A DNA stretch of 64,000 bases from Mesoterricola silvestris (lineage in GTDB: Bacteria > Acidobacteriota > Holophagae > Holophagales > Holophagaceae), in NCBI RefSeq assembly GCF_030295405.1, contig NZ_AP027080.1, positions 3,270,001-3,334,000 on the forward strand, given 5' to 3'. The position numbers and the translations under genes are program-made. The stretch's first letter is position 1. Each line of letters starts with the position of its first letter. This document shows positions 5,229-37,655 of this stretch, piece by piece. Under the pieces are notes generated by a model. That model was not told the origin of the DNA. It did not search any database and saw only the letters and a list, made by a program, of their open reading frames with translations.

Positions 5229-6188
5229 ATGGATCCGACGAACCAACCGCCTGACCCCTCTCCCTTCCTCTCCTGGAAGGACCCCCGGGAGGTCGCGAAA
5301 CGAATAAAAATCCTCATCAAGGCCATCGAACAAAGCCCCGTATCCGTCATCATCACGGATCCCCGGGGCGTCATTCAATACGTGAACCCCAAGTTCACGA
5401 AGCTGATGGGTTACACCCTGGAGGAGGCGGTCGGTCAGACGCCGCGCATCCTCAAGGGCGGGTTCCTCACCCGGGAGTTCTACACGAACCTGTGGGACAC
5501 CATCCTGGCGGGCAACGAGTGGCACGGGCTCTTCCACAACCGCACCAAGCAAGGCGACCTGGTGTGGGAACTGGCCTCCATCTCCCCCATCCGGGACGAC
5601 AACGGCGTCATCACCCATTTCGTGGGCGTCAAGGAGGACATCACCGAGCTCAAGCGCCTCCAGGACCAGATGGCCCACATGGCCCACCATGACCAGCTCA
5701 CGGGCCTTCCCAACCGGTTCCTCTTCCTGGACCGCCTGAGCCAGATGCTGGCCCAGGCCCGGCGCCGGGAAACCTCCTTCGCGGTGCTCTACCTGGACCT
5801 GGACGACTTCAAGGCCGTCAACGACACCCGGGGCCACGCCGCCGGGGACAGCCTCCTGACCGCGGTGGCCCAGCGCCTACAGGGCTGCGTGCGCGAAACC
5901 GACACCGTGAGCCGCATGGGCGGCGACGAATTCACCATCCTCCTCGCCGATGTCCACGACCTGGCCGACGTGGAGCGCATCGTGGCCACGATCCTCACGG
6001 CCATTTCCACCCCCTTCACCGTCGGGGACGCGGAGTGCAGGGTGGGCGTCTCCATCGGGGTGGCCATCTACCCCCTGGACGGCCTCGACGTGGACCCCCT
6101 GCTTTCCACCGCCGATGGGGCCCTCTACAAGGTCAAGGCCAGCGGCCGCGGGGGCTATTGCTTCCCGGCGCGCCATGCCGAGCCCTAG
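5229..6188 (+). CDS. PAS-GGDEF diguanylate cyclase
   Basis: 319 residues, soluble. A PAS domain with its PAC tail spans about 30-142 (ending FVGVKEDITELKRLQ), followed by a GGDEF domain at about 150-315. The active-site GGDEF is intact at 231-235, and an inhibitory I-site RETD sits at 222-225, exactly five residues before it. The expected reaction is two GTP to cyclic di-GMP with product feedback inhibition. No EAL domain follows. The ATG at 5229 has GGAAGG upstream. The gene is divergent from the MinD-like operon across a 156-bp AT-rich gap in which I could not assign a convincing promoter. With a flagellar operon 16 kb away, control of motility or attachment is plausible but not shown. Confidence 0.93.
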   Translation: MDPTNQPPDPSPFLSWKDPREVAKRIKILIKAIEQSPVSVIITDPRGVIQYVNPKFTKLMGYTLEEAVGQTPRILKGGFLTREFYTNLWDTILAGNEWHGLFHNRTKQGDLVWELASISPIRDDNGVITHFVGVKEDITELKRLQDQMAHMAHHDQLTGLPNRFLFLDRLSQMLAQARRRETSFAVLYLDLDDFKAVNDTRGHAAGDSLLTAVAQRLQGCVRETDTVSRMGGDEFTILLADVHDLADVERIVATILTAISTPFTVGDAECRVGVSIGVAIYPLDGLDVDPLLSTADGALYKVKASGRGGYCFPARHAEP

Positions 6189-6250
6189 TGCCTGTCGGCA
6201 ACCCCAAGGTGCCTTGAACCCGCGATGGAAGGGTCAGTTCCAGGTTGAGC

Positions 6251-6848
6251 GGATCCCATTTCATCCCAACAATCGGCGTTCATCCCTGTTTCCGCAGGGC
6301 TGACGCAGAGGTGGGTCGAAGCGCAAGTTACTCGACATCCTTCACTTCGAGTTCCATTCCTCCGGTCCCTTTGCCAGGACTCATTCCCAGCCTTCGAACC
6401 TCGATCTTCGCCTTGCCGAAATTGACGAGGAGGCAGGTCGGCAATCCTGTCGCCCTCAGGTAATTCAGGCCCTGGGCCACGTCAACGTCACCCAGGGCCT
6501 GGATGGCTTTGACCTCCACGATGACCCGGCCCTCGACGACGAGATCAGCTTTATACCTTCCGACCCTCGCGCCCTCGTAGAACACGTCGAGGACCTTCTG
6601 TTGAGCAAAGGTGACCTTGGCCCTACGGAGCTCGAACGCCAGCGCGTTTTCGTATACCTTCTCCACGAAACCATGGCCCAGGATGTTTGCGACGCGGTAG
6701 CTTAGGCCGATGATCTGCTGCGTGATCGGGTCCTGGATGGGCATGGGCGGGCTCCTCGACACAAAGGTGGCGACAACTCCCTGCGAAGTTCGAACGGGGA
6801 TGAAAAGGATCCAGGGGAAAAAGCAGGATAAGGAACGTCTGGTCAAGG
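6251..6848. mobile_element. Repeat-bounded element A carrying the GxxExxY gene
   Basis: The gene at 6328-6744 is enclosed by flanks that recur, without the gene, at 37472-37655. The left flank (about 6260-6340) has TTCATCC repeats, then CATCCCTGTTTCCGCAGGG and a GAGGTGGGTCG segment. The right flank (about 6763-6846) contains AAAGGTGGCGACAACTCCC and ends AAAAAGCAGGATAAGGAACG. The two ends are imperfect inverted repeats of each other: each has a TTCATCCC(C/T)GTT segment followed by CGCAGGG. I see no clear target-site duplication. Related arms occur at 50.73 and 52.60 kb. Boundaries are approximate. Confidence 0.65.
6328..6744 (-). CDS. GxxExxY protein, putative PD-(D/E)XK-fold nuclease
   Basis: 138 residues. 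The naming motif G25-x-x-E28-x-x-Y31 (GFVEKVY) is intact. Further on it has Asp67 (YKADLVV), E77-V-K79 (VEVKA) and Q91-x-x-x-Y95 (QGLNY). This is the D...ExK...QxxxY spacing of PD-(D/E)XK nucleases of the RecB/Cas4 type; that reading is mine from the sequence, and nuclease activity is inference. The ATG at 6744 follows GAGGAG by seven bases; a longer in-frame start lies in the repeat flank and is unlikely. The last codons and stop fall inside the left flank of the surrounding element and are the part retained in the gene-less copy at 37.5 kb. No neighbour suggests a pathway; it appears to be cargo of, or to drive, the element. Confidence 0.85.
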   Translation of the reverse strand: MPIQDPITQQIIGLSYRVANILGHGFVEKVYENALAFELRRAKVTFAQQKVLDVFYEGARVGRYKADLVVEGRVIVEVKAIQALGDVDVAQGLNYLRATGLPTCLLVNFGKAKIEVRRLGMSPGKGTGGMELEVKDVE

Positions 6849-6968
6849 CTGGAGCCAGATCACCGCGCAGGCGATCGGCGTCCGCGCTCCTCTAGCGGCA
6901 ACCTGGATACCGCCTTCGCACCTTGAGTCAACGTAGCTATTCATGACCTAGGGTTTGCCGACACACCT

Positions 6969-6974
6969 TAGAAT
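6969..6974 (+). promoter_or_regulatory. -10-like TAGAAT just before the helicase ATG
   Basis: TAGAAT ends six bases before the ATG at 6981 and no Shine-Dalgarno sequence lies between them. If this is the -10 element, transcription would start at or next to the ATG, giving a leaderless message. No good -35 hexamer is seen at 16-18 bp. Confidence 0.4.
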
Positions 6975-37471: not shown

Positions 37472-37655
37472 CTGACCTGACGTTCTTTATCCTGCCTTTT
37501 CCCTTTGATCCTGTTTATCCCCGTTTGAACTGCGCCGGGAGTTGCCGTCACCTTTGGGTCATGGACGTCGGGTAACGCGCGCTCCGACCCACCTCCACGT
37601 CAGCCCTGCGGAAACCGGGATGAACGCCGATCAATGGGATGAACGGGGATGAAAG
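37472..37655. repeat. Element B: gene-less copy of the GxxExxY element
   Basis: Read on the minus strand, this ~180-bp segment matches the left flank of element A (TTCATCCC, GATCGGCGTTCATCCC, TTTCCGCAGGGCTGACG, GAGGTGGGTCGG), then jumps to the right flank (AAAGGTGACGGCAACTCCC ... AAAAGGCAGGATAAAGAACG). At the junction it keeps GACGTCGGGTAA, the equivalent of the last codons and stop of the GxxExxY gene (GATGTCGAGTAA). About 420 bp holding the gene body are absent. It fills most of the gap between plsC and miaA; I see no gene in that gap. Confidence 0.75.

Follow-up and report, generated by a model that had tools for sequence, protein, structure and literature searches.

The window, the whole 64,000-nt stretch of Mesoterricola silvestris DNA analysed here, contains a GxxExxY gene (6328–6744, minus strand) that encodes a protein of 138 aa and lies within a 781-bp element (6188–6968), which has a GGDEF gene on one side and a helicase gene on the other. 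The element ends in terminal inverted repeats of ~20 bp with CTA|...|TAG borders, the left one at 6188–6211 (plus strand) and the right one at 6945–6968 (minus strand), and the inverted repeat at these ends (18 nt, 89%), stronger than that of the inner arms, pairs 6193–6210 with 6946–6963. The TA of the left CTAG target (6186–6187) overlaps the TAG stop codon of the upstream GGDEF gene (5229–6188), and on the right, positions 6969–6970 are the TA of the target copy TTAGAAT. Among the 17 terminal repeat pairs listed for copies in the same genome, CTA stands on the left in nine and TAG on the right in ten.

Two inner arms flank the gene, one 3' of it (6252–6299), which combines an ATCC/GGAT-class iterated motif with CGCAGGG, and one 5' of it (6780–6835), with an iterated motif of the same class. 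A first-pass annotation of this DNA had regarded these arms as the bounds of the element; they do exist, but they pair weakly (12 nt, 92%), and the true ends lie outside 6251–6848. In addition, positions 6843–6868 (minus strand) hold the 3' end of an IS5 transposase gene with its stop codon, which matches the VIWL(K/R)L-stop of two longer elements in the same genome (L061 and L062).

Related elements in the same genome

These two elements, IS5 parents of 1500 bp each (G000:138960-140463 and 840081-841584), encode an IS5-family transposase whose two reading frames overlap near a AAAAAGGGGGC run and which is followed directly by GxxExxY. The two frames match NF033580 with 132.7 and 138.3 bits, and DUF4096 and DDE_Tnp_1 are matched as well; together with the terminal repeats and the CTA/TAG borders, this places the parents in the IS5 family. 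They are the only copies with an intact transposase in the genome, two further copies being deleted or decayed. The parent comprises a frameshifted DDE transposase and then a GxxExxY passenger, and the window copy has kept both terminal repeats and the passenger. Because only a remnant of the transposase gene is retained, the window copy is a non-autonomous IS5 derivative, and any movement of it therefore needs the transposase of the two intact parents to act in trans.

Empty sites in related strains, which the first-pass annotation had proposed to look for, were found in three congeners (G005, G004, and G002). In two of them, G005 and G004, CTAGAAT occurs once ahead of the helicase gene, at the place taken by CTAG...TTAGAAT in the window's genome.

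Copies of the element without the gene are abundant in this genome. The one at 37.5 kb, described in the first-pass annotation as the same flanks lacking the gene, is real (37473–37650, minus strand) and is one of more than 40, a number that is itself a lower bound. When positions 6150–6950 were compared with the 4.99-Mb genome, at least 75 matches were obtained, and the 37.5-kb copy as query gave at least 40, several of them new. The aligned gene-less copies share (C)TA-GGGTGTGTCGGCAAACCC ... GGGTTTGCCGACACACCC-TA(G) and mostly measure about 306 bp between the terminal repeats, compared with 781 bp for the window copy and 1500 bp for two copies. They fuse the outer parts of the element at query positions of about 191–196 and 604–609, so that the ORF is absent. 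Many of them keep the terminal repeats; the 37.5-kb copy represents the element interior with the terminal repeats lost. This copy was also considered as a module predating the insertion sequence (IS), and a decayed miniature element (MITE) fits equally well, the two being inseparable.

Because of the parents, the shared ends, the gene-less copies, and the empty congener sites, the window element is read as an IS5 derivative that carries a passenger, with the short copies as its MITEs. It is almost certainly a transposase-deleted IS5 relic of the mobile-insertion-cassette kind, with GxxExxY as passenger and the 306-bp gene-less copies as matching MITEs. Like IS5-family insertion sequences with their MITEs and mobile insertion cassettes, it has terminal repeats, CTAG/TA borders, a DDE transposase in the parents, and short internally deleted copies. 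It differs from the usual IS5 element in carrying a GxxExxY passenger with inner arms of its own, for which no report was found.

The GxxExxY protein

The window protein belongs to the GxxExxY family, passing both curated cut-offs in profile searches: TIGR04256 (E=3.5e-38, 130.5 bits, cut-off 35) and PF13366 'PDDEXK_3' (E=9e-37, 126.5 bits, cut-off 22). The D67, E77-V-K79, and Q91 residues named in the first-pass annotation are present at those positions and conserved in an alignment of 51 homologues with 32–51% identity to the window protein, in which E28, D67, and E77 do not vary, while K79, Q91, and Y95 reach at least 90%. The D...ExK (+ Q) active-site residues of the PD-(D/E)XK superfamily are therein conserved.

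The AlphaFold2 model has a pLDDT of 92.8 and a pTM of 0.86. Comparison of this model with nucleases of the RecB/Cas4 type, also suggested earlier, placed Cas4 SSO0001 among the best Foldseek matches: the top solved structures were LHK-Exo, Cas4 SSO0001, and a restriction-endonuclease-like protein, with probabilities of 0.95–1.00, none at E≤0.001, and with unrelated proteasome, COP9, and ribosome entries listed beneath them. The four best matches by VIA (Z of 9.5, 9.3, 8.6, and 8.4) are nuclease-fold entries. A PD-(D/E)XK core fold is supported for the modelled protein, and the earlier suggestion of this pattern is borne out by the Pfam assignment, the model, Foldseek, and VIA; the fold itself is not new, because Pfam already places the family in PD-(D/E)XK. 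GxxExxY resembles Cas4 SSO0001, LHK-Exo, Hjc, and restriction-endonuclease-like proteins in predicted fold and catalytic residues, but it is a stand-alone protein of 138 aa tied to its own flanking repeats.

In diverged pairs of GxxExxY genes, dN/dS ranges from 0.04 to 0.18, and it is about 0.1 between the window gene and its paralogues; the protein is therefore maintained by purifying selection. One GxxExxY copy in a transposase-deleted IS of the same genome (L063, G000:2781700-2782035) has N in place of the catalytic K79, as read from its translation only. In PADLOC, the window protein matched no defence system, and two homologues gave only marginal matches (E 0.015–0.038).

Inverted arms across genomes

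GxxExxY genes were sought with PF13366 in 60 relatives, 35 of which were positive, and the flanks of these genes form inverted arms of varied sequence. The first-pass annotation had expected related genomes to show the flanks seen in the window; the flanks as such are specific to the IS, whereas the architecture of inverted, iterated arms holds generally. From 84,980 species genomes scanned, 80 GxxExxY loci in ~20 phyla were obtained, for which an arm score was taken as the best inverted repeat between 295-nt flanks, with a threshold of at least 30. This threshold is reached by 72.5% of the 80 loci (median 39.5), about one quarter falling below it; the corresponding figures are 0.8% for 507 pseudo-windows taken within these loci and 4% for cross-paired flanks. 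At the same threshold, 16 of 20 GxxExxY loci in the relatives are armed, versus none of 28 ParE loci. Each arm consists of ~three iterations of a 7–8-nt core, such as AACCACAGAGGACACAGAGAGCACAGAGG (L191, in which the two arms are identical), TTTAGACAGGATTAACAGGATGCACAGGAT (L134), AACCACGAATTAACACGAATGAACACGAAT (L140), or TGAACCGCCAAGGACGCCAAGAGCGCCAAGG (L177). Across many phyla, the modules mostly occur without any IS. GxxExxY with its own inner arms is a module, carried in the window as an IS passenger.

Arm pairs without the gene are dispersed in genomes that have it. In 400 kb of G035, a genome with six GxxExxY genes, there are 20 inverted arm pairs (~50 per Mb), typically of 55–75 nt, and its congener G025, which has no such gene, shows none in the 400 kb scanned. 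For each of its three gene-less classes (CACCAAG, CGCAGAT, and CACGGAT), G035 also has a GxxExxY gene with matching arms (L346, L080, and L114). In a crude test of whether gene-less pairs in G035 favour gene ends, made with a rough ORF caller, eight pairs lie in gaps (four convergent, three tandem, and one divergent) and nine outside, and no such preference is claimed.

A three-core pattern was counted over the 60 relatives, and the reversed control pattern gave essentially zero matches. Among the 54 relatives outside the window's genus, arrays are present in 29 of 30 genomes with the gene and in four of 24 without it, and array counts correlate with the gene (Spearman 0.79, shared ancestry uncorrected). 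ACCAC-type arrays occur in 33 of 40 GxxExxY genomes of other phyla, with one control match overall (shared ancestry again uncorrected). Two results count against the mechanism proposed below: at least four genomes (G043 with 39 arrays, G045, G036, and G025) have arm arrays and no detected GxxExxY gene, and the window's genus has GxxExxY and essentially no three-core arrays. In G043 the arrays are of the ACCGC type, and a PF13366 gene may have been lost, may have been missed in the fragmented assembly, or may be replaced by another partner. In G044 (C1, C15, C16, C18, and C26), arm arrays are clustered at ~180-nt spacing in a satellite-like manner. With arms occurring both with and without the gene, a repeat-linked role is the best reading for the family; this part of the earlier proposal stands, and the part that made it explain the movement of the window copy does not.

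Filled and empty sites were compared at two loci of G035, whose gene names were read from sequence and not from a database search. The thiolase/HADH spacer measures 448 nt with arms and gene in G035 and 34 nt in four congeners, and the queC/queF spacer measures 487 nt in G035 and 9 nt in two congeners; arms and gene are therefore gained or lost as one block. Two other congeners have different gene-less arm pairs in the thiolase/HADH spacer, so arms without the gene can fill the same spacer. No target-site duplication was identified for the arm-only modules.

In the window's genus, GxxExxY modules with different arms lie behind the transposase of three different insertion sequences: the IS5 element of G000, a second, distinct one of the IS5 family in G001, and one of the IS630 family in G004. 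Each of the three has terminal repeats at CTAG. They look like separate captures of GxxExxY modules. G001 (L098–L105) has 49 PF13366 matches, many of them N-terminal fragments (profile positions 1–54), and in the fragment copies retrieved the PF13366 fragment is preceded by the 3' end of a transposase gene resembling that of IS5.

The type of arm is coupled to the protein. Arms were classed by regular expression as '...GAT' or '...GAG/AAG', which left 45 of 120 loci unassignable. On a tree of 79 proteins the arm class changes five times, versus 25.1 in shuffled data (0/500), although the exact number is soft, since the tree was built from few columns and leaves many forks open. Both classes occur within Planctomycetota, Acidobacteriota, Verrucomicrobiota, Bacteroidota, Pseudomonadota, Chloroflexota, and Ignavibacteriota. 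Moreover, when only pairs between phyla were considered (37 loci), arm similarity rose with protein identity (Spearman 0.22, 0/1000 permutations). Synonymous sites are saturated in such pairs, as in L129/L133 (dS 3.2, dN/dS 0.04), and the shared cores are hence not merely the result of recent DNA ancestry.

Interpretation and competing readings

The closest parallel is the REPIN-RAYT system. RAYT genes are described as always flanked by two inverted REPs and as coevolving with them, their presence correlating with REP abundance (PMC2817692); REPINs are described as doublets of REPs in inverted orientation, possibly able to spread non-autonomously (PMC3116915). GxxExxY modules similarly have a single gene between two inverted repeats (at ~three quarters of loci), gene-less inverted pairs dispersed in the genome, a repeat type that co-varies with the protein, and a repeat abundance that tracks the gene. 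In contrast, RAYT is an HUH/Y1 protein, whereas GxxExxY has profile matches to PF13366/TIGR04256 alone and a PD-(D/E)XK model, which makes it an analogue and not a member; a REP is a tagged palindrome, whereas a GxxExxY arm is an array of ~three 7–8-nt cores; and GxxExxY has several genes per genome and a phyla-wide range. The 23S rRNA intervening sequence (IVS) with its S23p/IVP ORF, known in Coxiella to have tandem heptamers (GACAGAT) beside the ORF (PMC4990558), likewise places an ORF within an inverted-arm hairpin. It differs in that GxxExxY modules are intergenic, the window element included, and in that the protein folds are unrelated.

Since the features of the REPIN-RAYT pattern recur with an unrelated protein, arm spread promoted by GxxExxY is proposed. 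The protein, by prediction most likely a PD-(D/E)XK endonuclease, would recognise the core of its own arms and would help arm pairs to be copied into further sites, whether or not the loop contains the gene, in a way likened to RAYT transposases with REPINs. Binding or cutting of the arms, and spread driven thereby, are what we infer; by analogy, recognition of its own arm core and a drive to arm-pair spread are on balance probable. For the explanation as a whole, an IS5 relic in the window together with a GxxExxY-arm module, a probability of roughly 0.6 seems appropriate. The chances are about even for a broader claim: that GxxExxY and its cognate arms form an undescribed, phyla-wide selfish repeat system, an analogue of REPIN-RAYT with PD-(D/E)XK in place of HUH, which is repeatedly captured by insertion sequences and is the source of much of the dispersed repeat content of the CACAGAG, CACGGAT, ACAGGAT, and CACCAAG types in the genomes of environmental bacteria.

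To our knowledge, GxxExxY (TIGR04256) is a widespread family without an assigned role, and we know of no assigned origin for the iterated arm repeats that litter the genomes of many phyla. In the open-access literature searched, GxxExxY is named in passing only, PDDEXK_3, PF13366, and TIGR04256 have no functional account, the arm sequences appear nowhere, and a GxxExxY-arm system has no prior description; this novelty is provisional because subscription journals lie outside the literature covered. The link between gene and repeat gives the family a testable job, spreading or controlling its repeats, and predicts which repeat pairs with which gene. It suggests that gene-repeat pairing of the REPIN-RAYT kind also arose with an unrelated nuclease fold. 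The apparently independent capture by three insertion sequences in one genus shows a route for further spread.

Among the competing readings, the one that survives best, although unlikely, is that the arm pairs owe their movement to another enzyme, be it a RAYT, some host process, or a route through RNA, with GxxExxY as cargo in the hairpin loop. An unrelated family fills a similar armed slot, which is the chief caution about the mechanism proposed above: PF05635 (23S-IVP, a four-helix bundle) loci in the relatives (L286–L315) have inverted arms in 16 of 22 cases, and both families may thus owe the spread of their arms to a shared cause and not to the nuclease; the mechanism behind the architecture shared by PF05635, GxxExxY, and the Coxiella IVS may be supplied by neither protein alone. 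The many arrays of G043 and the travel of GxxExxY on IS5 and IS630 elements also agree with cargo. However, cargo would not need matching arms, and the arm class tracks the protein clade across phyla; array counts also follow the GxxExxY gene. The PF05635 arms are themselves iterations of 7–9-nt cores, for example TTCAAAGTTCAAAG, TAGGCATTAGGC, and CTGGAGGCTGGAG.

Less likely still, the arms could be operators or terminators of an autoregulating, DNA-binding GxxExxY protein, gene-less pairs being kept as terminators or regulatory sites. The arms do form hairpins, and their start often coincides with the stop codon of the gene before them, but block insertion at empty sites, dispersal at ~50 pairs per Mb, and the conserved nuclease residues are left unexplained. 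As for the earlier view of the window copy as a minimal transposase-free element mobilised by its own GxxExxY nuclease, the lack of a transposase ORF between its ends and the predicted nuclease fold agree with it, but the IS terminal repeats, the CTAG borders, the transposase 3' remnant, and the intact IS5 parents sharing its ends make it highly improbable for this copy. Elsewhere in the genome (L279, G000:C1:3364039-3366258), the same terminal repeats surround an ORF of 449 aa that resembles, judged from sequence, a group II intron-like reverse transcriptase.
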